From Leptotrichiaceae bacterium (lineage in GTDB: Bacteria > Fusobacteriota > Fusobacteriia > Fusobacteriales > Leptotrichiaceae): a stretch of 12,856 nt of DNA. The position numbers were made by a program, and so were the translations under genes. Position 1 is the first letter of the stretch, and the number at the start of each line of letters is the position of its first letter. Of the stretch, positions 2,084 through 12,856 are shown piece by piece. Under the pieces are notes generated by a model that saw only the letters and a program-made list of their open reading frames with translations, did no database searches and was not told where the DNA came from. The DNA lies in assembly GCA_030532815.1 (NCBI GenBank), contig JAUNKI010000041.1, positions 1 to 12,856 on the forward strand. The letters are read 5' to 3'.

Positions 2084-2124
2084 TAAAAAATAATTTTTTT
2101 GAATTAAATAGAAAATATTGAAAA

Positions 2125-2248
2125 AGACTGTTTTATAAGTTGAAAAAATAAATAAGCTATAATTTTGTATATTTTTATAAGGATAACAGTTTATAGTAAA
2201 AAATACTATTTATAGCTTTTGAACTGTTTTTAACTTATGAAATAGTTC
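2125..2248. repeat. Nested imperfect long inverted repeat
   Basis: The outer arms, about 22 bases each (2125-2146 and 2227-2248), are inverted copies with a few mismatches and share the core ATAAGTT/AACTTAT. Inside them AGCTATAA (2155-2162) pairs with TTATAGCT (2210-2217), and ATAGTA (2193-2198) pairs with TACTAT (2204-2209). The gaps between outer and inner arms are nearly equal on both sides, 8 and 9 bases. The element starts about 40 bases after the lipoprotein stop. It could be a decayed miniature element or a folded 3' UTR. Confidence 0.5.
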
Positions 2249-2394
2249 TTTTTTATTAGAAAGAGCAGTAAAAATATACTGTATTTAGAATGAAACTGAT
2301 AATTTTTAAATTTTAAATATTTTGATTTTAAAATAAGTTAATTGTAAAATGTGATATGTCGATTTTTTGTAGTTATTAAGATAAAATCTTATTT

Positions 2395-2524
2395 AGCTGT
2401 CTCGTAAAATAGAAAAATATCTCAAATCATAATTTTTATAAAAACAGTGAAACTGACAGTTTATAAACTTGAAAAAAAGATATTATTTATATTAAAAAAG
2501 TAATTTTTGATTTACGAGACAGCT
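2395..2524. mobile_element. MITE-like element with 14-base terminal inverted repeats
   Basis: AGCTGTCTCGTAAA at 2395-2408 is repeated exactly in inverted orientation as TTTACGAGACAGCT at 2511-2524, bounding 130 bases with no coding capacity. The GAGACAGC end resembles the termini of several insertion-sequence families, from general knowledge, so a non-autonomous derivative is plausible. No clear target duplication could be defined because the flanks are T-rich on both sides. A transcript hairpin with a long loop is the alternative reading. Confidence 0.55.
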
Positions 2525-2656
2525 TTTGTTTAAAAACAGTTTCATTATAAGTATAATTTTCAGAAGAATTTTTCTGTTATTTTAAATTCTTTTAGGATAT
2601 AACTATAATTTTTTTAAATTATAATTATTTTGAAGTATATCGGTACAATTTAAATT

Positions 2657-4072
<1,416 letters not shown>

Positions 4073-4076
4073 CTAT

Positions 4077-5741
4077 TTATGAATTTTGAAACTGTTTCAT
4101 GACGAAGTCTAACGAGCCTTTTGGATCCCTTGTTAATTGAATATATTCGGCTCCCTGAGTTTTAATCAGCTTTATTCCGAGTTTATCAGTATCCTGTTTT
4201 ATGTCTTCATAATTTGAAGCGACCTGAGGTGCCAGTATAATTAAATCATAATCTTTCATTATATCGTAATGTGCTCCGTAAGAACCTGCAGCCGCACTTA
4301 TCGGAATATTATGTTCTTTAGCACCCTTTTTCAGTGCATTTGCTAAAAGTCCGCTTGTTCCTCCGCCTGCACATAGGACTAATACTTTTTTCTGTTTATC
4401 AGGTATTAAATTTTCCTGTAATTCATTTTTAGGTTTTTTCATATTTTTTTCCGTCTTATCTTCTTCAGTAAAGCTGTTTCTTTCTCTTTCCATAATCTGA
4501 GTGTCATAGGTTTTGAAGAAAGGGTAGTAGATAATGACATCCACTAATATGAGAAGGAATGTCAGTATAACGGAAAGTTTATCAAAACCGGTTCCCAATA
4601 TTAAACCGATTGGAGCGGGAGTTGTCCATGGAAGAAAATACATAAAACTGTTCATTCCGAGAATATCAACAAAGAATTTGAATAACCATACATTTACTAT
4701 AGGTGTCATAATAAACGGAATAAAGAAAATAGGATTTAATACTAACGGACCTCCGAATAATATAGGCTCATTTACTCCGAATGCAGTGGGGATACATGAA
4801 GCTTTACCTATGGCTTTGTTCTGTTTTGACTTTGAAAGCCACATAAACATAAAAGGGACGACTAAAGTGGCTCCTGTTCCTCCCATAGTAGTAATAAACA
4901 TCTGTAATCCGGGAGTTATTATTTTAGAAGCATGTGTTCCAGCCTGTAACGCTTGCAAATTTGCATCCAAATTGATAAAGGCAATCGCGGATATGGCAGG
5001 TTCGACAATAGACGGACCATGTATTCCGACAAACCAGAACAGTGCTATAACCCCATATATTACCGTTATTCCGATATATCCGTCAGCTGCACTGAATAAA
5101 GGTTTTAATGACTCGATTAGAGCCTGGGCGAAATTGTAACCTAAAATATTTCTTATGAACAGATCCACTCCGTATAAAACCAGAACGGTAATACTGAAAG
5201 GAATTACATCTTTAAAAGTCTGGGATAAATTAGGCGGAACTTCTTTAGGCATTCTTATCGTTATATTTTTTCCTATACAGAATTTATAAATATTTGCAGT
5301 TATAAATGCTGAAACAAATGCACTCAGCAAACCTGCAGTTCCGAGATATCCCCGTCCAAATCCGTTTTCGAGGGGGTCAGCCGCCAGCAGGAGAAAGCCT
5401 GCCATTGATGCCAGCATTACAGATATACTGTTAATTTGGTCTGTGCTTTCCATATTACGGTTGAAAGCATCGGTTAGTGATTTTGCCGTAGTTCCTGCAA
5501 CAAGTAGACCGACAATTCCCATAGAGTAAATATAAGGTTTTACTATTGCAGCTTCAACTGATTTAGGCCAGTAAAATCCGAATATATTCGGAACAAATGC
5601 GATAAGCATAAATAAACTTGAAAATAAAACGACAGGCATTGCTGCTATAAAACCGTCCCGAATAGCTCTCAGATATTTGTTTCGTGATATTTTCTGGAAA
5701 AACGGCTGCATTTTTTCAATTTGAGTTATTAATCCTTTCAT
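4077..5741 (-). CDS. lacE: Lactose-specific PTS enzyme IICB
   Basis: This is a 554-residue inner-membrane permease that carries lactose into the cell and phosphorylates it on O6. Residues about 1-410 are the lactose/cellobiose-type EIIC domain with multiple hydrophobic segments, the conserved [10 protein letters not shown] (His241) and the NEPILFG loop (324-330). A charged linker at about 425-450 joins it to the EIIB domain. Its phosphocysteine is Cys457 in [12 protein letters not shown]. Phosphate passes from LacF His78 to Cys457 and then to sugar. The N-terminus is typical of LacE, and a GGGAG ribosome binding site lies inside the 3' end of lacF. The lacF stop is 6 bases from this start. 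Confidence 0.95.
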
Positions 5742-5747
5742 AAATAT

Positions 5748-6062
5748 CTACACTCCCTTTTTATATAATTCTATAAGATGCTTAGTAATATCTTTCAGTA
5801 GTATAGTTGTCATTAAATGATCCTGACCATGTATCATAATAAAGCTCATTTCTAAATTTTCTCCTCCTGCTTCTTTAGAAAGGATATCAGTTTGAGCATT
5901 ATGAGCTTTTACAATATTTTCCTCTCCTTCCTTTATCAGCTGTTCAGCTGCCTTAAAATCTCCTTTTTGAGCTTTGGTCAAAGCATCCAATAATTTTGAA
6001 CGGGCATCACCTGCGTAAGCTACGATTTCAAATCCGATCATTGTAATATCTTCTCTGTTCAT
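5748..6062 (-). CDS. lacF: Lactose-specific PTS enzyme IIA
   Basis: This is a 104-residue cytoplasmic phosphocarrier of the trimeric, three-helix lactose/cellobiose EIIA family. The phosphorylated residue is His78 in IHGQDHLM; Asp81 is the expected metal ligand and His82 is conserved. The start is placed at 6062 rather than at the in-frame ATG at 6098. The shorter form has the family length of about 103-105 residues, matches the family start ([12 protein letters not shown]), and has AGGAGG 7 bases upstream. The longer form would overlap lacD. The gene lies between lacD and lacE and feeds phosphate to the EIIB domain of LacE. Confidence 0.94.
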
Positions 6063-6069
6063 AGTGTTT

Positions 6070-6075
6070 CCTCCT
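6070..6075 (-). promoter_or_regulatory. Ribosome binding site that fixes the lacF start
   Basis: AGGAGG on the minus strand lies 7 bases before the ATG at 6062, just past the lacD stop. It decides for the 104-residue LacF over a 116-residue form starting at 6098 inside lacD. Confidence 0.85.
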
Positions 6076-6076
6076 A

Positions 6077-7057
6077 TTATTTCAATTTGTTTTTCCAAGA
6101 AATTGCTGTTGTTTTCAGCACTTCGTTTAATTCTTCAATATTTTTACGTCCCGTAGAATTCAGCCATTCCACAGTTTTATTTTCTCCGTATTTTGAAAAT
6201 ATTTCCACACCTTCGGCCCATGTGGCACGTCCACATAACACACCGTTAAATTCAGCACCTGCATTATGTGCAAATTTTAATGTTTCCTGAAATAATTTTG
6301 CACTGACTCCTGCACTTAAATAAATATAAGGCAAATCTGAAACCTTATTCTGTTTTCTGAAAAATTCTTCGGCTTCTTTTTTTGTGTAAATAACTTTATT
6401 TTCACAAAAACCTTCTACAAAGTTCATATTTACCGGAACTTCAACTTTTAATACGTCGACATTGTATCTTTTATCCGAAAAGACTTTCATTGCTTCAATT
6501 ACCTTTCTCGGCTTTACTTTTGCAAATTCTGTGCTGCTGTTGTCCTGAATTTTACTGTCGTAAGTTAATATTTCCAGAAAGAAAGGAATATCCTCTGCGA
6601 GACATTCGGAGCCTACCCTTTCCATGTAGGCTTTTTTCTTATTATTGATTTTTTCCGTTTCATCGACATCATAATATAATAAAAATTTAACTGCGTCAGC
6701 ACCTTTTTCCTTTAAACGTTTTACTGACCATAAGGATAGGCTGTCAGGGAGTCTTCCTGCAGAATTGGTATCATATCCTGTTTTTTCATAAGCTAATAGA
6801 AGCCCTGCGTTTTTATCTTTAATTTCGGCTGCTTCCAGACCATATTCAGGGTCCAGCAAAATGGAGGAAGAATATTTTGTCAGCTCTCTTGATACAAGAA
6901 TTTTAAAATTTTTTATTTGTTCCGATGTTGCTTCTTCCTCTCGATATTTATTCATCATCTTTTTTAAAGCTCCACGCTGATCTATAGCTAAAGCCGATAT
7001 AATACCGTTTTCATTACTCAGCTTTTCTAAAAGAATTTTTTTCTGTTCAGTTATCAT
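6077..7057 (-). CDS. lacD: Tagatose-1,6-bisphosphate aldolase
   Basis: This 326-residue class I (Schiff-base) aldolase cleaves tagatose-1,6-bisphosphate to dihydroxyacetone phosphate and glyceraldehyde-3-phosphate, the last step of the pathway. Length equals that of staphylococcal LacD. The N-terminal region has [13 protein letters not shown] (residues 22-34). Lys204 in [10 protein letters not shown] is the likely Schiff-base lysine and Glu162 the likely acid/base; these are read by position against known LacD proteins and are off by one. AGGAGG, which overlaps the lacC stop, precedes the ATG. In streptococci a LacD paralogue also acts as a regulator; nothing here indicates that role. Confidence 0.94.
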
Positions 7058-7068
7058 TAGAGTTCCTC

Positions 7069-8001
7069 CTATATTTCCGATATTTGTATATTATTGAATA
7101 CATCGTCATATTTTTCGATATCTACGTATCCCGTCATCTTTTCCATAGCATTGAGAATCCCGAGAGTATTCCCGATTTTTAAAAGCTCCCTGTCATTTTT
7201 ACCTGTTTCCAGTGCCGAAGCGATGCCTGCCACTGTTGCATCACCCGAACCGACTGGATTTACTGCCTTTATTTGAGGGATATTTACTTTATAGAATTTG
7301 TCATGATGTCTGGCAAAACAGCCGTTTTTTCCAAGAGATACGATTATCCATTCTATTCCTGAAAAAAAACTGTTTGACAATATATTTTTCAACTCGACGG
7401 AATTTTGTGAAATTTTTTTGTTTACAAGCAGTGAAAGCTCTTCTGCATTAGGTTTTATCACTTTCGGTTTGTATGGACTTTTCAGTACTGAAGTCAGTGC
7501 TTCTCCCGAACAGTCCAGAATAGTACTTTTATTATATTCGTTACATATTTTTATGATTTTTGTATAAAAATCTTTTTCGATTCCTTTAGGTAAACTTCCT
7601 GAAATTGTAACTACCGAAATTTCGCTCAGTAATTTTTTCAGATGTTTGAGAAAACCGTCGGATTCTCCAGAAGTAACTGTCGGACCGCTTTCAAGGATTT
7701 CAGTCTGATTTCCTTCATGTAGGATTGCAATACAGTTTCTTGTTTCTCCTGATATTTCAAAAAAAGAATGTTTTATTTTTTTTGAATTTAATCTGCTTTG
7801 AATATCTTTCCCTGAAAATCCGCCTATTAATCCGCTTGCCAGTACATCATTACCGATTTGCTTCAATATTCTCGTAACATTCAGTCCTTTTCCGCCCGGA
7901 GTTTTCAAAGGTTCGCTAATTCTGTTTACAGTATTTAAGTTGAACTTTTCCAACGGATAGGAAATATCAATTGAAGGATTCATTGTTATTGTTAAAATCA
8001 T
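7069..8001 (-). CDS. lacC: Tagatose-6-phosphate kinase (PfkB family)
   Basis: This 310-residue kinase phosphorylates tagatose-6-phosphate with ATP to tagatose-1,6-bisphosphate. It has the PfkB signature 1 region [12 protein letters not shown] (residues 35-46) and signature 2 [12 protein letters not shown] with catalytic base Asp254. The start is set at 8001, not at an in-frame ATG at 8037. The protein then begins [16 protein letters not shown] like known LacC/PfkB proteins and has the usual 310-residue length, and AGGAGA sits 7 bases upstream. The longer form would overlap lacB by 20 bases. The closely related 1-phosphofructokinase FruK is an alternative by sequence alone, but the operon context decides for LacC. 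Confidence 0.93.
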
Positions 8002-8008
8002 AGTAATT

Positions 8009-8014
8009 TCTCCT
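8009..8014 (-). promoter_or_regulatory. Ribosome binding site that fixes the lacC start
   Basis: AGGAGA on the minus strand, 7 bases before the ATG at 8001 and just upstream of the lacB stop (8018-8020) in the chromosome, supports the 310-residue LacC. Confidence 0.8.
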
Positions 8015-8017
8015 TTT

Positions 8018-8533
8018 TCAATCTTTGTATTCTCCATTATCCCATTTTTTTAAAAATTCATCGAAAAAGTCCGTATTTTTCTGTTCGGTATTGACTGTTT
8101 CGATATTTTTAATTTTTTCTATTATTTTTCGACTTTCTTCGGTATTTTTATATTCAGCTTTTATAAAAGCTTCAATTATATCAAATATTAACAGTTCACC
8201 TGTTATTTTCCCTCCAAATCCGATTACATTTGCATTTAAGCATTCTTTGGCATATATTGCAGTTGTCATATCTCTGACTAAGGCGGATCTTATTCCGGGA
8301 ACTTTATTTACAGCGTTATTTATGCCTACTCCTGTTCCGCATATACAGACGCCTAAATCTGCAGTTCCGCTGCTTACAGTTTCTCCTACTTTTTTTCCGT
8401 ATATTGGATAATGAGTTCTTGTAAAATCATAGGTTCCGCAGTCTATGACTTCGTATCCTTTTGATTTTAAAAAATCCGATACGTTTATTTTTATATCGGT
8501 AACAATATGATCACATCCGATAGCTATTTTCAT
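8018..8533 (-). CDS. lacB: Galactose-6-phosphate isomerase subunit LacB
   Basis: This 171-residue subunit of the RpiB/LacA/LacB isomerase family, together with LacA, converts galactose-6-phosphate to tagatose-6-phosphate in the cytoplasm. The N-terminal GCDH motif (residues 6-9) is present. The CICGTGVG loop (63-70) retains the cysteine expected of a catalytically competent RpiB-like subunit, and [11 protein letters not shown] follows. Length is the same as in Gram-positive LacB. The start has AAGGTG upstream. It lies 30 bases after lacA, and its stop overlaps the leader of lacC. Confidence 0.94.
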
Positions 8534-8563
8534 TTTACACCTTCTTTCATGAATTAGAGATAA

Positions 8564-8989
8564 TCAGCACATTTTATTCAGCATATCCACTCTTATTTGA
8601 TGACGACCTCCGTCATAATGAGCAGTCAGAAAGCCTTTTACTATATTTCTGGCTATTTCCGTTCCTGTAATTTTAGCTCCTATTGTAATTATTCTTGAAT
8701 TGTTGTGTCCTCTTGTCATATAAGCTGAACGTTCGTCGGATACTTCAGCAGCTATTATTCCTTTTATTTTAGCAGCCGTAATAAAACTTCCGGCACCATA
8801 TCCGTCAAAAATTATTCCCAGACTGTCAGGTATATTTTTTACTTCCTGTGCAACAATACAGGTAATATCAACAAAATCCATTCCATTTAGGCTTTTGTCA
8901 ATTACATCATAGCCGTTTTCCGAAAGATAATTCTTAATATTGTCTTTCAGATGTTTTCCGTCCATGTCGGCACCTAATATAACTTTCAT
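8564..8989 (-). CDS. lacA: Galactose-6-phosphate isomerase subunit LacA
   Basis: This 141-residue partner of LacB in the heteromeric galactose-6-phosphate isomerase is the first gene of the structural operon. It shows the RpiB fold sequence pattern, but at the position of LacB's cysteine loop it has DGYGAGS (62-68), as in other LacA proteins. It also has HNNSR (95-99) and the highly conserved C-terminus [21 protein letters not shown] ribosome binding site lies 8 bases upstream of the ATG. A 5' leader of about 85 bases separates it from the proposed transcription start near 9073. Confidence 0.94.
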
Positions 8990-9079
8990 GTTTTCATCTC
9001 CCTGTTTAAATGATAATACTTTTTTCTACGTAGTTTGAGTATTTCGTTTAAATAAATAGTTTTTCAACTTTCTGAATTT

Positions 9080-9108
9080 AATATATCATAAAACGAACAA
9101 AAAAACAA
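9080..9108 (-). promoter_or_regulatory. Promoter of lacABCDFEG
   Basis: On the minus strand, TTGTTT (9103-9108) and TATATT (9080-9085) are spaced by 17 bases. Initiation near 9073 is inferred. The -35 box overlaps the start of a block of TGTTT-type repeats, as expected if LacR controls access. Confidence 0.7.
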
Positions 9109-9154
9109 TAGTTTTTGTTTGAAATTTAAACATAAAATTGTTTATTTGTTTATT
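9103..9154. promoter_or_regulatory. Candidate LacR operator block (TGTTT repeats)
   Basis: An imperfect palindrome AAACAA/TTGTTT (9103-9120) overlaps the -35 box. A second palindrome with TGTTT and AAACA arms around a 7-base centre covers 9116-9132. Direct repeats TTGTTTA and TTGTTTA occupy 9138-9152. The published lactococcal LacR site is rich in TGTTT followed by A/T bases, and TGTTTATTTG at 9140-9149 fits it closely. The role is inferred; in so AT-rich a genome some of these repeats could be chance. Confidence 0.5.
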
Positions 9155-9211
9155 AAGAAAGATATAATATTAAAAATGATGTGTTTATGACAGTTAAATA
9201 TATGATGCATC

Positions 9212-9244
9212 CAGATAAATAAAAATCGGATGTAAAATCCGATT
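9212..9244 (-). terminator. Terminator of lacR
   Basis: On the minus strand, AATCGGAT (9237-9244) pairs perfectly with ATCCGATT (9224-9231) around a 5-base loop, followed by TTTTATTTATC. It starts 15 bases after the lacR stop and separates lacR from the lacA promoter, so the two units are transcribed separately. Confidence 0.85.
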
Positions 9245-9258
9245 AATTATGTTTATTT

Positions 9259-10017
9259 TTATGAAATTACCGATACATATTTTTCCAATTTTTTTATGAT
9301 TTCCTTATCTGTTTTATTTATTATGACGGCAGTTAATTTATCCAATGTATAGAAGGAGGTAAAATCATTTTTGTTGATTTTTGTATGATCCAGCAGTAAA
9401 TATCTTTCTTCCGAATTGTTTATAGCGATCTGCTGTGTATATCCTTCTTCAAAAGTGGAAGTCATTATTTCATTATTTTGTATTCCGTTACAGCTGAAAA
9501 AAATTTTTCCGAAGTACATATTAGACAATAGAGAATTTGTTATTCCACCTACAAAGGCACGTGTGATATCTCTCATATTGCCACCTGTAAGATAGACTTT
9601 AAAAGAATCCGTTTTTTTTTCCGAAAGAATCTCAAAAATCGGAAGACAGTTTGTTACTATCCGTAACACTTGATTTTTAATTTCTTTTGCCAATAGTTCA
9701 ACTGTTGTTCCGGGACCTAAAAAGATAGTATCTCCTTCATTAATAAGTTCAGAAGCCTTAAGTGCGATTTCTTTTTTTTCCTGAATGTTGATAACGTATT
9801 TATCAGTATGTGAAAGTTCCTTATATTGAAAAATATTTTTACTTTTGGCTCCTCCGTGAATTCTTGTCAGAAGTCCCAGCTCTTCAAGTTCTGTTAAGTC
9901 TCTTCTTGCGGTCATATCTGAAACATTGAGGTTTTCAACTATGTCCGCAACTCTTATACTCCCTTTTTCTTCGATTAATTTACTTATGGTAGCTAATCTT
10001 TCATCTTTATTCAGCAT
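9259..10017 (-). CDS. lacR: Lactose operon repressor LacR (DeoR family)
   Basis: This 252-residue repressor has an N-terminal winged helix-turn-helix (about residues 6-58; DIVENLNVSDMTARRDL at 25-41 is the recognition region, then LTRIHGG). A C-terminal sugar-phosphate sensing domain contains GDTIFLGPGTT (95-105). In Gram-positive relatives LacR is released from DNA by tagatose-6-phosphate; that is family knowledge applied here. Length is that of known LacR proteins. GAGGTG precedes the ATG at the right distance. It lies upstream of lacA on the same strand, as in Staphylococcus and S. mutans, and has its own promoter and terminator. A different DeoR-type regulator is conceivable, but context and length favour LacR. 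Confidence 0.93.
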   Translation of the reverse strand: MLNKDERLATISKLIEEKGSIRVADIVENLNVSDMTARRDLTELEELGLLTRIHGGAKSKNIFQYKELSHTDKYVINIQEKKEIALKASELINEGDTIFLGPGTTVELLAKEIKNQVLRIVTNCLPIFEILSEKKTDSFKVYLTGGNMRDITRAFVGGITNSLLSNMYFGKIFFSCNGIQNNEIMTSTFEEGYTQQIAINNSEERYLLLDHTKINKNDFTSFYTLDKLTAVIINKTDKEIIKKLEKYVSVIS

Positions 10018-10035
10018 TTTGGTTCACCTCTTTTA

Positions 10036-10047
10036 AACAGTACTGTT
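10036..10047. promoter_or_regulatory. Palindrome at lacR start site, candidate autoregulatory operator
   Basis: AACAGTACTGTT is a perfect 12-base palindrome, flanked by TTAA/TTTAA on either side. It sits across the expected transcription start (about 10046) of the lacR promoter, a classic position for self-repression. Which protein binds it is not shown by sequence. Its arms (AACAG) differ somewhat from the TGTTT repeats at the lacA promoter. Confidence 0.45.
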
Positions 10048-10321
10048 AACTTATTATATGATAAATCAAACAGAAAATCAATGTTTTTCCTTTTATTTTG
10101 TATGTTCCGTCTACATGTGTTTTCCAGTCCGATGAATTCAACTTCCAAGTATATGTTCCGTCATTACGTAGATACAGTGTTTTGTTGGAATTATAAAAAT
10201 CTCTTCCTGCATATACCCCTGTTCCTTTGGAAAAAGTTCCTGTAACTACATTTGTTACTACTTTAAATAAAAAGGAGGAAATACTCAGAATTATTAAAAT
10301 TGCCAATATAACCAAAAACAT
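10046..10321 (-). CDS. Small membrane-anchored hypothetical protein, probably 3'-truncated
   Basis: This 91-residue frame begins with a hydrophobic segment (residues 1-19), then a soluble part with short beta-strand-like elements: TLYLRNDGTYTWKL (48-61) and HVDGTYKIKGKTLIF (69-83). The dGtY...W...GtY.i.g..l pattern recalls small lipocalin-like envelope proteins, but no family is claimed. The last eight residues (CLIYHIIS) look unrelated and coincide with the lacR promoter, so the original 3' end was probably lost at about 10075. No clear ribosome binding site precedes the ATG. The same frame stays open upstream to about 10363, so the original start may have lain further up or been lost. It may have formed an operon with the broken gene upstream. 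Confidence 0.45.
   Translation of the reverse strand: MFLVILAILIILSISSFLFKVVTNVVTGTFSKGTGVYAGRDFYNSNKTLYLRNDGTYTWKLNSSDWKTHVDGTYKIKGKTLIFCLIYHIIS
10053..10081 (-). promoter_or_regulatory. Promoter of lacR
   Basis: On the minus strand, TTGATT (10076-10081) and a consensus TATAAT (10053-10058) are separated by 17 bases. The promoter occupies the last dozen codons of the upstream reading frame (10046-10321), which suggests that frame is truncated. Confidence 0.75.
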
Positions 10322-10341
10322 TTTTATGACTGCTGTTTTTG

Positions 10342-10830
10342 TCAGTGCAATTTTATTTTTTTACAGTTATTGTTACGGAAAGAGATAAATATATTCTTTG
10401 CGGTATCTGTTTTACGGTTTTTAATCTGTTTAAAAAGAGCTTTTTGAGTATTTTGGAAATTTTCATCGTATTTATTATATTCAGAAATTTCAGTTTCAGT
10501 TTTTAAGAAACAGCTGTTTTTTTCTTTTGAAAAAATTATTCCTTTTTCCGTTAATATTTTTTCGTCGGTTTTATCGGAAGGTTCCCAGCCTTTATTTATT
10601 AAATGTTTTATATACATTTTATTATATATGGACGAAAAAGCTGTCTGTATAACTATAAACAGGAAAAAATGAGAATCGAACAGAAAAATAGTAATAATTA
10701 AGCTTATTATTCCTATAAACCAGTTTTTTCGAAAGAAAGGAACAAAAAATCCGAAAAGGAAAGTCATCCATGAAAAACCGATTTATTTTCTCCTTATTTT
10801 TAGAGTTATTTTATTACTTTATCTGTTCAT
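10342..10830 (-). pseudogene. DUF2628-like membrane protein gene with two in-frame stops
   Basis: An open frame starts at ATG 10767 (141 residues), but that ATG has no ribosome binding site at good distance. In the same frame upstream lies ATG 10830, with GAGGAG before it. It reads MNR, stop (10819-10821), eleven codons (SNKITLKIRRK), stop (10783-10785), then IGFSWM joining the open frame. GFSWxTFxFGFFVPxFR is a typical entry into DUF2628-like small membrane proteins. The hydrophobic segment at about residues 16-45 followed by SIYNKMYIKHLINKGWEP fits that family too. The simplest reading is a gene disabled by nonsense mutations. Alternatively translation restarts: AAGGAG at 10790-10795 sits before an ATC codon where one might expect ATG. 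Function is unknown. Confidence 0.5.
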
Positions 10831-11131
10831 GGTTACAAGCTCCTCTTATTTAAAGTAGCTGATTTTATCATAATTTAGATTAAAGGAATATTAGAGAAAT
10901 GAAAGATATATATTTTATTTTTTGTGTTGAAAAATTTCAAAAAATTATAATGTTTTAAAATTATTTATATAAGAAGGAATAAAAAATGAAGTAGTAGTTT
11001 TAAAATTGGTATTTTAAGATATTATATTTAATTTTACAAAGAATTTAAAAAGTAAAAAAAAAGAAAAATATAAGAGGGGGGACTATTTATTAACAGTATT
11101 TATAATCAATTAAAATTTTGGAGGTAAAATT
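10831..11131. other. Intergenic region upstream of the bacteriocin-like gene
   Basis: No convincing gene is seen. A 19-codon frame at about 10900 lacks a ribosome binding site, and an ATG at 10986 with an AAGGA upstream stops after two codons. A weak promoter candidate (TTGTGT 10922-10927, TATAAT 10946-10951, 18 bases apart) and a purine block AGAGGGGGGA (11073-11082) are the only notable elements. The region is extremely AT-rich. Confidence 0.5.
10922..10951 (+). promoter_or_regulatory. Possible promoter for the bacteriocin-like cassette
   Basis: TTGTGT (10922-10927) and TATAAT (10946-10951) are 18 bases apart, giving a leader of about 175 bases to the precursor gene. A second TATAAT at 11101-11106 would give a short leader but has no -35 box, only the G-rich block upstream. 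Neither is secure in such AT-rich DNA. Confidence 0.25.
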
Positions 11132-11455
11132 ATGGAAATGAAAGAATTAAGTTACAATGAACTAATGGAAATTGATGGCGGAAAAAGAAATAGAGCCAGA
11201 AGAGGTAGAGGAAGTTGGGGTTGTGAATGTAACAGAGATTGGGATAGAATAGCTAAAGGAACAATAGAATTAGGTTATGGAATAGATAGAAAAACTCAAT
11301 CTACAAAGGAAGATAATGCTTTAAGAGGAGAAATAATCAGTCGTGCCGGAGATTATCATATAGACAGAGGTATAAGCAGAATAAAAGAAGGTTGGCGTGG
11401 CGGTTGTACTCGTAGTGAATATAGGGAATTTAACAAATGGCGTGGAGGAAAATAG
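11132..11455 (+). CDS. Double-glycine-leader bacteriocin-like precursor peptide
   Basis: This 107-residue secreted-peptide precursor has leader residues 1-17, MEMKELSYNELMEIDGG, which match the class II bacteriocin/pheromone leader pattern LSxxELxxIxGG exactly, so cleavage after Gly17 by a C39 peptidase is expected. The predicted mature part is 90 residues, long for this class. It carries 16 arginines with a basic start (KRNRARRGRG), cysteines at 31, 33 and 92, several Trp/Gly pairs (SWG, GWRGG, KWRGG), and no obvious membrane helix. The function of the core is unknown; a toxin acting on other bacteria or a modified peptide are the main options. GGAGG lies 7 bases upstream. The next gene overlaps by 19 bases, and a C39 exporter remnant follows at 12403. 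Confidence 0.75.
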   Translation: MEMKELSYNELMEIDGGKRNRARRGRGSWGCECNRDWDRIAKGTIELGYGIDRKTQSTKEDNALRGEIISRAGDYHIDRGISRIKEGWRGGCTRSEYREFNKWRGGK

Positions 11456-12318
11456 AAAAATTAGGGAATATTTCCATATTTTTATTTATAATTAGTTTTC
11501 TAAATGTCATATTTGTATTTATATTAAGAAAATTAATTATAAATTCAAGAATAAATTCCATAATTACAATACATAAATTAATAAGTTATTTATTAGATAT
11601 TCCGATCATTTATTATTTTATAAGAAATAATAAAAATAAAAAATATTTTATAAAAAAGGAAAAAATAGGGATAAAGAATTTTGTTAACTATTATTCATTG
11701 ATGTTTTTTATAGGACTGCTTATAAATATAATATCTGTTATGCCTAAGATAATAATGGAAAATAAGAAAAGTGATATTTTGTATGATTATTCTTCTTATA
11801 ATATTAATATAATAATATTTTCAGTTATAATAATAGCTCCTATTATAGAAGAATTAATGTTTCGCGGAGTAATAATGAATGATTTGAAAGAATACGGTTA
11901 CAAATCTGCAGTAATCATAAATTCAGTACTGTTTGGCCTTTCCCATATAGAAATAAGTAAAGTTATAATGACTACTTTATTAGGAATAATTTTTTCCTAT
12001 GTTGCATACCGATATTCATTAAAATGTTCTATTTTGCTGCATGTAATATGGAATTTAAATTCAGGAATAGGAACAATATTTTACTTTAATAAAATTCCTG
12101 AAGAAATATTAATATTATCTATGGGAGGACTATCTTTGGTTTTATTTCTAATTTTTATAATTGGAATAATAAAAAGAAAGTATACAGATATATTTTTTAT
12201 GTTTAAATTTAATAAGAGAGATAAAGAGAACACTATTTTATTTTTAAAAAATAATATTATATTTCTTTTTATAATAATGATAATGTTTTTTCTAAATAAT
12301 TATTACTGGTATTTGTAA
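11437..12318 (+). CDS. CPBP-family intramembrane metalloprotease, candidate immunity protein
   Basis: This is a 293-residue polytopic membrane protein, with hydrophobic segments at about residues 12-31, 46-63, 86-102, 123-137, 156-168, 176-192, 222-245 and 272-288. All three CPBP (CAAX protease/bacteriocin-processing, Abi) motifs are present: EELMFRG with Glu138, Glu139 and Arg143; FGLSH with His170; HVIWN with His202 and Asn206. These residues form the metal-binding active site of the family. Members next to double-glycine bacteriocin genes often confer self-immunity, while others cleave signal peptides or leaders. The start overlaps the precursor's last 19 bases, with AGGGA 9 bases before it inside the precursor, implying translational coupling. 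It ends just before a strong terminator. Confidence 0.85.
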   Translation: MAWRKIEKLGNISIFLFIISFLNVIFVFILRKLIINSRINSIITIHKLISYLLDIPIIYYFIRNNKNKKYFIKKEKIGIKNFVNYYSLMFFIGLLINIISVMPKIIMENKKSDILYDYSSYNINIIIFSVIIIAPIIEELMFRGVIMNDLKEYGYKSAVIINSVLFGLSHIEISKVIMTTLLGIIFSYVAYRYSLKCSILLHVIWNLNSGIGTIFYFNKIPEEILILSMGGLSLVLFLIFIIGIIKRKYTDIFFMFKFNKRDKENTILFLKNNIIFLFIIMIMFFLNNYYWYL

Positions 12319-12327
12319 ATAGCTTTA

Positions 12328-12370
12328 AAAACAAAGAGTTTCTACCAAATAAAGAAACTCTTTGTTTTCT
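12328..12370 (+). terminator. Strong terminator after the CPBP gene
   Basis: A perfect 16-base inverted repeat, including AACAAAGAGTTTCT at 12330-12343 and AGAAACTCTTTGTT at 12353-12366, has a 9-base loop and a T-rich 3' side. It lies 10 bases past the CPBP stop and should end the precursor-protease transcript before the exporter remnant. The A-rich 5' side means it could work in both directions. Confidence 0.88.
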
Positions 12371-12402
12371 AAATAAAATTAAAAAAGAGGTAATAGATAG
12401 TT

Positions 12403-12534
12403 ATGTTAAAAAAATATCATAATGTTTTGCAAAGAGATGAAAGAGATTGTGGATCAGCCTGTATTTTAACCATAGCGAAACAGTTTAATTCTGATTTTTC
12501 AGTCGCAAAATCGGAAGATATAACTGAAACCTGA
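12403..12534 (+). pseudogene. Truncated C39 peptidase/bacteriocin ABC exporter remnant
   Basis: Forty-three codons begin MLKKYHNVLQRDERDCGSAC, the hallmark start of the C39 peptidase domain of bacteriocin exporters (LagD/ComA/PCAT type). Gln10 is the oxyanion-hole residue and Cys16 in RDCGSAC the nucleophile. The family needs a His and an Asp about 80-100 residues later, then six membrane helices and an ATPase, roughly 700 residues in all. Here a TGA ends the frame at codon 44 and the opposite strand is soon occupied by another gene, so the rest is absent. The tail after about residue 32 no longer looks like C39. GAGG lies 12 bases before the ATG. It is separated from the CPBP gene by a terminator. 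It is most likely a deletion relic. Confidence 0.75.
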
Positions 12535-12548
12535 TATATTAGAGGTAT

Positions 12549-12818
12549 TTAAAATTTAATCAAACGGCAGTATAAAAAAATATGTATAATCAGAATTAAG
12601 AGTAATCCGATACGAAAATAAGGTTTTCTGATTTTATGACGATATAGGATCATTCCTGCTGTACCGCCTAATGCTCCTCCAAGCAACGAACACCCCAGTA
12701 ACATAAATTCTGAAATTCTCCATTTGCGATGTTTCGCTTTGTACTTATCAATTGCAAATAATATAAAAGTCAGGAGATTAAGTATAATTAATAATTCTTT
12801 TATAAAACTTTTCGGCAT
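12549..12818 (-). CDS. DUF1294 family small membrane protein
   Basis: This 89-residue protein has two or three hydrophobic segments (about 7-23, 38-57 and 69-86). The DUF1294 hallmarks are in order: DKYKA (24-28), WRISE (33-37), GGALGG (47-52) and RHK (60-62). Length is full for the family, whose function is unknown. No clear ribosome binding site precedes the ATG at 12818, so the true start may differ by a few codons. It converges on the exporter remnant with 14 bases between stops and probably marks the chromosomal side of the bacteriocin-like cassette. Confidence 0.82.
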   Translation of the reverse strand: MPKSFIKELLIILNLLTFILFAIDKYKAKHRKWRISEFMLLGCSLLGGALGGTAGMILYRHKIRKPYFRIGLLLILIIHIFLYCRLIKF

Positions 12819-12856
12819 TATTTTTCGTATGTTAAACGGAGTAGTCTTAAAAAACT

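Follow-up and report, generated by a model that had tools for sequence, protein, structure and literature searches.

A double-glycine peptide precursor, an overlapping CPBP-type gene and a truncated C39 exporter gene in a Leptotrichiaceae bacterium

Organization of the locus

The sequence analysed, called the window throughout, is a whole stretch of 12,856 nucleotides from a Leptotrichiaceae bacterium. In a scan with ompA, Leptotrichia hongkongensis came closest, at 74%, and the host genus may conceivably be Pseudoleptotrichia. Similarity of the window to G002, a genome of the same genus, covers positions 348-2110 and 12546-12853, and the genes dus, ompA, and DUF1294, which are adjacent in the two same-genus genomes (G001 and G002), are interrupted in the window by 10.4 kb between ompA and DUF1294. 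The intervening segment (positions 2111-12545, delimited by the breaks in similarity to G002) is absent from both genomes and carries a tagatose-6-phosphate/PTS-type operon and a bacteriocin-type locus; either an insertion in the window or a loss in G001 and G002 would account for the difference. Most of the segment is the operon, which is of PTS, phospho-glycosidase, and tagatose-6-phosphate type with a DeoR-type regulator (names given by eye, from the translations). Two ORFs on the minus strand in the interval between the regulator and the precursor gene (positions 10046-10321 and 10342-10767) had no Pfam match above cut-off.

The bacteriocin-type locus starts with an ATG-initiated ORF on the plus strand (positions 11132-11455), read directly from the DNA, that encodes a 107-amino-acid precursor consisting of a 17-residue leader (positions 11132-11182, with Gly-Gly at its end) and a 90-residue core (residues 18-107). 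A ribosome-binding site, GGAGG with a 7-nt spacer, occupies positions 11120-11131 of the same strand; a promoter scan found 14 sites where shuffled sequence averaged 16, and thus no promoter is claimed. The leader, MEMKELSYNELMEIDGG, is an exact fit to LSxxELxxIxGG, as an earlier note on this DNA had claimed, and has hydrophobic residues at -4 (I), -7 (L), and -12 (L). Direct reading also bore out the note's counts for the core (90 residues, 16 Arg, Cys at 31, 33, and 92), but its "scattered Trp-Gly pairs" was loosely worded: one WG (29-30) and one GW (87-88) are present, the Trp residues being at 29, 37, 88, and 103. The core has 14 Gly (15.6%), with a computed pI of 10.2, a charge of about +9.8, and a GRAVY of -1.38; this last value, the sole basis for the comparison, agrees with the claim that the core has no membrane helix. 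The GC content of the precursor gene is 36%, that of the gene overlapping it 20%, and that of the window 31%.

The chance of such an ORF was gauged from 300 windows simulated with the first-order base transitions of the real one. The simulated windows averaged 0.78 ATG ORFs of at least 80 amino acids, none of which had the strict or the loose leader pattern; at a threshold of at least 40 amino acids, one loose leader match was obtained in all 300 windows, as against one in the real window. The precursor attained the cut-off of no family model, with TIGR01847 bacteriocin_sig just missed (14.7 bits, cut-off 15.7) and PF10439 Bacteriocin_IIc at 13.9 bits (cut-off 27.1).

The overlapping CPBP gene

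The start of the next gene lies 19 nt inside the precursor ORF. This gene (positions 11437-12318, plus strand) encodes a 293-amino-acid CPBP/Rce1-like membrane protein, which matched PF02517 with 72.3 bits (cut-off 22.4; E 4.2e-20). EELMFR, FGLSH, and HVIWN, at residues 138, 166, and 202, correspond to EExxxR, FxxxH, and HxxxN, which we take to be the defining CPBP/Rce1-like motifs, and they were kept in all 18 proteins aligned. A sequence search with the protein against PDB gave no match, and 17 plasmid records matched it, none covering more than 80% of the query.

CPBP relatives were detected in 31 of 149 genomes (own included), and the neighborhoods were fetched for 13 of the 30 others, that of G025 being scanned by script only. 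A precursor lies directly 5' of the CPBP gene in the window and in five of these 13 (G031, G004, G027, G016, and G022); the relatives in G031 and G004 are 41-43% identical to the window protein. The window protein joins, in an 18-row tree, three Leptotrichia CPBPs encoded directly 3' of precursors, and this group stands apart from nine CPBPs not directly after precursors. The support for the grouping, 83/84, is under the tool's own mark, and the window branch is long, a situation in which, according to the tool, groupings can be spurious. Between G031, G004, and G027, dN/dS of the CPBP gene is 0.33-0.41; for the second CPBP of G031 and G004, it is 0.47. From the gene layout, the CPBP protein is probably the best candidate for an immunity protein.

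Hairpin, C39 stub, and export machinery

The CPBP gene is followed by a terminator-like hairpin (positions 12331-12370, plus strand) with 13-nt arms and a 9-nt loop, and then a T-rich stretch; the fold of positions 12319-12402 is predicted at -18.5 kcal/mol. The terminator scan overlooked this hairpin because its 9-base loop exceeds the 8 of the rule. The hairpin core is common to Leptotrichia at the same place.

Beyond the hairpin, a C39 peptidase/ABC exporter gene begins and breaks off after 43 codons (positions 12403-12534, plus strand). This stub is 65% identical to residues 1-43 of the 718-amino-acid exporter of G004, and its DNA can be aligned with C39 genes up to about position 12534. 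The stub protein matched PF03412 with 25.3 bits over profile positions 2-33 of 133, and the genome-wide search gave it 21.2 bits (cut-off 22); the N-terminal DCG region of the catalytic domain is present and the remainder absent. The end of the stub could, less probably, be an assembly join. No other C39 match occurs in the genome, but the assembly is 82.5% complete and might lack an exporter encoded elsewhere. Other matches of this genome to the G004 exporter start at residue 142 or later and therefore do not include the peptidase part. No HlyD was seen by eye in the window, and a search of the genome with the HlyD-like adaptor of G004 was negative (a search with no positive control); a TolC-like protein is present, PF02321 matching two stretches of a 429-amino-acid frame above cut-off. 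Across 33 family genomes, 11 have C39 domains above cut-off, the window's own not among them, and the two same-genus genomes, each 99% complete, had no C39 at E<=1e-5.

The earlier note had missed the CPBP gene as well as the hairpin and stub behind it. Its statement that export and cleavage are well founded stands for relatives, some of which have a C39 exporter beside the precursor, but it is not supported for the genome of the window.

The peptide family

As a query on its own, the precursor found only itself among 5.77 billion proteins and had no match in GTDB contigs. PADLOC had no match for the precursor or the CPBP protein, and the precursor family profile had none in viral contigs. The family was reached only via a genome search of relatives and via the CPBP neighbor. 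Matches to the precursor at E<=1 occurred in 32 of 149 genomes (own included), of which the own genome, G031, and G004 were retained; the other 29, all having an E of 0.019 or worse and no whole-length match, were taken as a group to be chance. The precursor relatives of G031 and G004, both Leptotrichia, adjoin CPBP relatives. The G031 precursor as query retrieved 14 proteins (own genome's included), and a five-row profile retrieved 20, including that of the window and a Streptobacillus moniliformis protein. Matches extending beyond the leader were only to the window's own family (Leptotrichia and Streptobacillus) and to unnamed metagenome proteins. Among 98 Fusobacteriota genomes (own included), 12 matched at E<=0.1; those with low-E matches beyond the leader (own genome, G031, G004, G016, G022, and G027) all represent one family, and the matches in G028, G005, G008, G035, G063, and G069 were leader-only or doubtful.

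At least 90% of the aligned family rows retain the C-x-R motif, and P0017 shares both GSWG and C-x-RDW with the window precursor. Eight chosen cores were compared (window, P0017, G031, P0005, P0018, P0019, P0016, and G028, the last having the leader alone in common). They range from 56 to 99 residues, and seven are basic and carry cysteine both in their N-terminal part and close to the C-terminus; the exception, P0016 from Streptobacillus, is acidic and has no Cys. Against a profile of seven relatives' cores, the window core without its leader scored 22.6 bits, a value that none of 4814 scored shuffles (5000 made; maximum 14.0) reached. With sub-family profiles, the window score was reached by 0 of 4300 shuffles for the Leptotrichia CxRDW type, 2 of 4965 for P0017, 15 of 4952 for P0018/19, and 14 of 4433 for P0016, the likeness to the P0018/19 and Streptobacillus types thus being weak when each is taken alone. 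A profile search of PDB gave an engineered protein (E 8.5e-4), with no stretch passing by itself, and carnobacteriocin B2 (E 0.64, residues 3-43); both were treated as uninformative.

These comparisons uphold the earlier view of a bacteriocin-like precursor with a double-glycine leader in a fusobacterium, the homologues keeping that leader. The core is less of an oddity than was then thought, given six further cores of 56-78 residues, five of them basic with two Cys. An outcome that the note would have counted against its reading, a frame not conserved in relatives, came true in part, as the frame is broken in some of them. Of the 14 proteins found with the G031 query, four retain the whole core (in one, the annotated start lies further in) and ten are shortened or altered at the C-terminus; some of the ten come from contigs of less than 1 kb, and short contigs and sequencing errors may lie behind some of these cases. 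The dN/dS of the precursor core segment, about 0.8, comes from four differences only and is too thin for use.

Several other double-glycine peptides were encountered in other genomes. G022 (L055) has two further ones on the opposite strand, with Gly/Ala-rich cores, and at least six short ones surround a single C39 exporter/HlyD-like pair in G005 (L089, L107). G063 (L106, L113, L116) has three whose leaders are almost alike and whose cores differ, interspersed with hydrophobic proteins of 210-243 amino acids; these may form a further cassette array, outside the window's family but within its order.

Fuller and decayed clusters in relatives

The six paired clusters, the window and five relatives, are in differing states of integrity. 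G004 has a frameshifted precursor, a CPBP gene, the C39 exporter, and an HlyD-like adaptor (PF13437); in G031, the precursor and CPBP gene are intact and the C39 frame is 404 amino acids. The precursor of G027 is broken, and only the first eight C39 codons follow its hairpin (DNA read by eye). In G016, the precursor is intact and overlaps the CPBP gene, and the C39 gene is broken; in G022, a stop interrupts the precursor, the C39 gene is whole (727 amino acids), and the adaptor lies in two frames. The near-identical precursors of G022 (L091) and G016 (L093) differ by an in-frame TGA in one, the other being open. Overall, CPBP is open in six of six clusters, the precursor in three, and C39 in two; all three are intact together in none of them, so no genome showed a fully working cluster of the CPBP type. 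TIGR01193 was above cut-off in all three exporters tested (G004, G022, and G028).

An immunity-type gene thus persists in several genomes beside a broken precursor or exporter. A second locus in G012, G031, G029, G027, and G024 consists of a hydrophobic-peptide gene, the hairpin, and a truncated C39 gene, with no precursor in the listed stretches; it thus matches the window except for the missing toxin gene. In this orphan locus (L206, L207, L209, L211, and L212), a thioredoxin-like gene (by eye) stands beside a small hydrophobic peptide and the hairpin, and the C39 frame ends at the same point (..VVVHDLYLF).

Block exchange between relatives

G028 has a full C39 exporter beside a different immunity-type gene, and its comparison with G004 shows where the two clusters part. 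The upstream region and leader are common, with 86% DNA identity over 360 columns, and the alignment ends at position 13248 of L066 and 9766 of L063, in each case exactly where the GG codons end. Past these codons, G028 has a different core, and a 59-amino-acid hydrophobic peptide replaces CPBP; similarity then resumes, at 97% over 3339 bp, from the hairpin region through C39 and HlyD, the stretch starting in G004 at the last bases of the CPBP gene. The same borders were obtained between G028 and G031, but the close kinship of G031 and G004 makes this a single exchange. The core and immunity gene therefore differ as a block in one comparison of relatives.

A hairpin pattern was found at 14 distinct places in the 33 family genomes (own included) and at none in the backward-read control. 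In ten cases a C39 gene or remnant follows immediately, and in 12 a CPBP or small hydrophobic-peptide gene comes immediately ahead. The places that deviate are two ends of additional CPBP genes that have no C39, a G004 copy by a transposase-like ORF, and one place in G022 by unrelated genes. A looser pattern occurred nine times in 0.19 Mb of fetched neighborhoods, and not at all in 1.42 Mb of ompA-scan loci (mostly other phyla) or in 3.8 Mb of simulated sequence.

A cassette exchange in Leptotrichiaceae is our tentative reading of these borders, and we rate it somewhat short of an even bet. The upstream region with the leader and the hairpin with the exporter would be fixed, whereas the core and its matching immunity gene, either CPBP or a small hydrophobic protein, would be swapped as a block by recombination at the GG codons and the hairpin. 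Leftover hairpin-ended immunity genes would then accumulate as immunity-only remnants with C39 stubs, and the window would be one such state in which the toxin core has been kept. The small hydrophobic peptide, with two membrane helices as read by eye, may itself be a leaderless bacteriocin.

Interpretation and alternatives

With a double-glycine precursor, a CPBP gene, and a stub here, and a full exporter in G004 and G022, we consider the window probably to hold a decayed locus of bacteriocin or class II microcin type, its own exporter lost, the CPBP protein serving in immunity, and the locus orphaned. The fuller form in relatives has the precursor, then the probable immunity gene, then the hairpin. 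Removal of the leader after Gly-Gly and export of the cationic core would be the work of a C39-peptidase ABC exporter together with its HlyD-like adaptor and presumably a TolC-like channel. A disulfide linking the N-terminal and C-terminal cysteines may close the core. The exported core would act on related bacteria, the CPBP membrane protein shielding the producer; both killing and immunity are read here from gene layout. As the exporter is down to 43 codons, the peptide is probably not exported by machinery of its own, and the locus most likely survives through its immunity gene, whose retention after exporter loss selection would presumably favor.

The peptide might still leave through another C39 exporter encoded in the missing part of the genome, the locus then being a live weapon. 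This was considered because blp strains of pneumococcus with a broken exporter can use ComAB, which exports for BlpAB-negative strains according to passages of PMC12150690; the precursor frame, start site, and leader are all intact, and the assembly is incomplete to the extent given above. Such an exporter seems quite unlikely, however, in that the stub is the sole C39 match, the other matches to the G004 exporter do not reach its peptidase part, nothing matched the G004 adaptor (with the reservation on controls already made), and the two nearly complete same-genus genomes have no C39 at the threshold used. Somewhat less improbable, though still unlikely, is that the precursor and CPBP gene are functionless relics that have not yet decayed, a view that overlaps our preferred one as to the loss of export. 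The truncated exporter fits it, as do the broken precursors of G004, G027, and G022 and the 10 of 14 database relatives that are shortened or altered (some from very short contigs). Against it, the precursor, ribosome site, CPBP frame, and hairpin of the window are all intact, CPBP is open in every paired cluster, and its dN/dS among the three Leptotrichia genomes stays at 0.33-0.41.

The CPBP protein could instead be a protease that processes the peptide, by trimming or releasing it, the pair being a signal or surface peptide system and not a toxin with its immunity. The conservation of the CPBP motifs in all aligned proteins and the position of the gene directly after the precursor in six genomes are compatible with this, and a role in peptide processing has been suggested for some CPBP members (Pei et al., as cited in PMC9200625). 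We nevertheless hold it to be very unlikely: in G028 the 59-residue hydrophobic peptide takes the CPBP slot behind the same leader and ahead of an exporter 98% identical, several CPBP genes occur without a double-glycine precursor in the listed stretches, and no sensor-kinase-like ORF adjoins the precursor, as judged by eye.

Comparison with known systems

Titles and the starts of abstracts, among the literature matches listed, gave no description of class II bacteriocins of Leptotrichiaceae or of this peptide family; the fusobacterial matches in the portion of PMC4573289 consulted are linocin-like, and the passages of PMC6469967 hold no mention of Leptotrichia. The leader region of PF10439 Bacteriocin_IIc does align, P0018 and P0019 giving E values of 5e-5 and 2e-5 over stretches to residues 37 and 40, but the window precursor scores well under the cut-off of that model and none of six relatives tested passes it.

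Class II microcins, by the passages of PMC9746304 and PMC10680697, have leaders of 15-18 residues ending in GG or GA, with hydrophobic residues at -4, -7, and -12, and searches for microcin-like peptides have admitted lengths of up to 150 residues and Gly contents of 12-26% (PMC10680697). The window precursor has a 17-residue leader of just this pattern, a length of 107 residues, and 14 Gly among the 90 residues of its core, and its relatives have the C39 exporter and HlyD-like adaptor. It differs in the Arg-rich hydrophilic core, the CPBP gene in the immunity position, the Fusobacteriota host, and the reduction of the exporter to a stub. The gene order parallels that of mcbABCI of Moraxella catarrhalis, described in the relevant part of PMC2761928 as an HlyD-family protein, an ABC transporter, a double-glycine peptide, and a tested immunity gene that overlaps the peptide gene at its 3' end. 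The likeness is one of gene layout: McbI has 74 amino acids and is described there as unlike other proteins, and the exporter genes are upstream.

The pneumococcal blp/pnc loci likewise combine double-glycine bacteriocins with CAAX-protease genes, considered immunity genes in the passages seen of PMC4860687, and often have a broken exporter gene (PMC4860687 and PMC12150690, in part). Their host is of course Gram-positive, their bacteriocins are two-peptide, and quorum-sensing genes are in the locus. The Leptotrichia clusters would offer a diderm parallel to the broken-exporter pattern of blp, with CPBP proteins as candidate immunity factors. A family with recognizable borders would also allow mining for weapons of oral Leptotrichia, including cores too diverged for a homology search. 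The kind of system is a known one; what is new here is the peptide family, its pairing with CPBP in this host, and the borders at the leader and hairpin.
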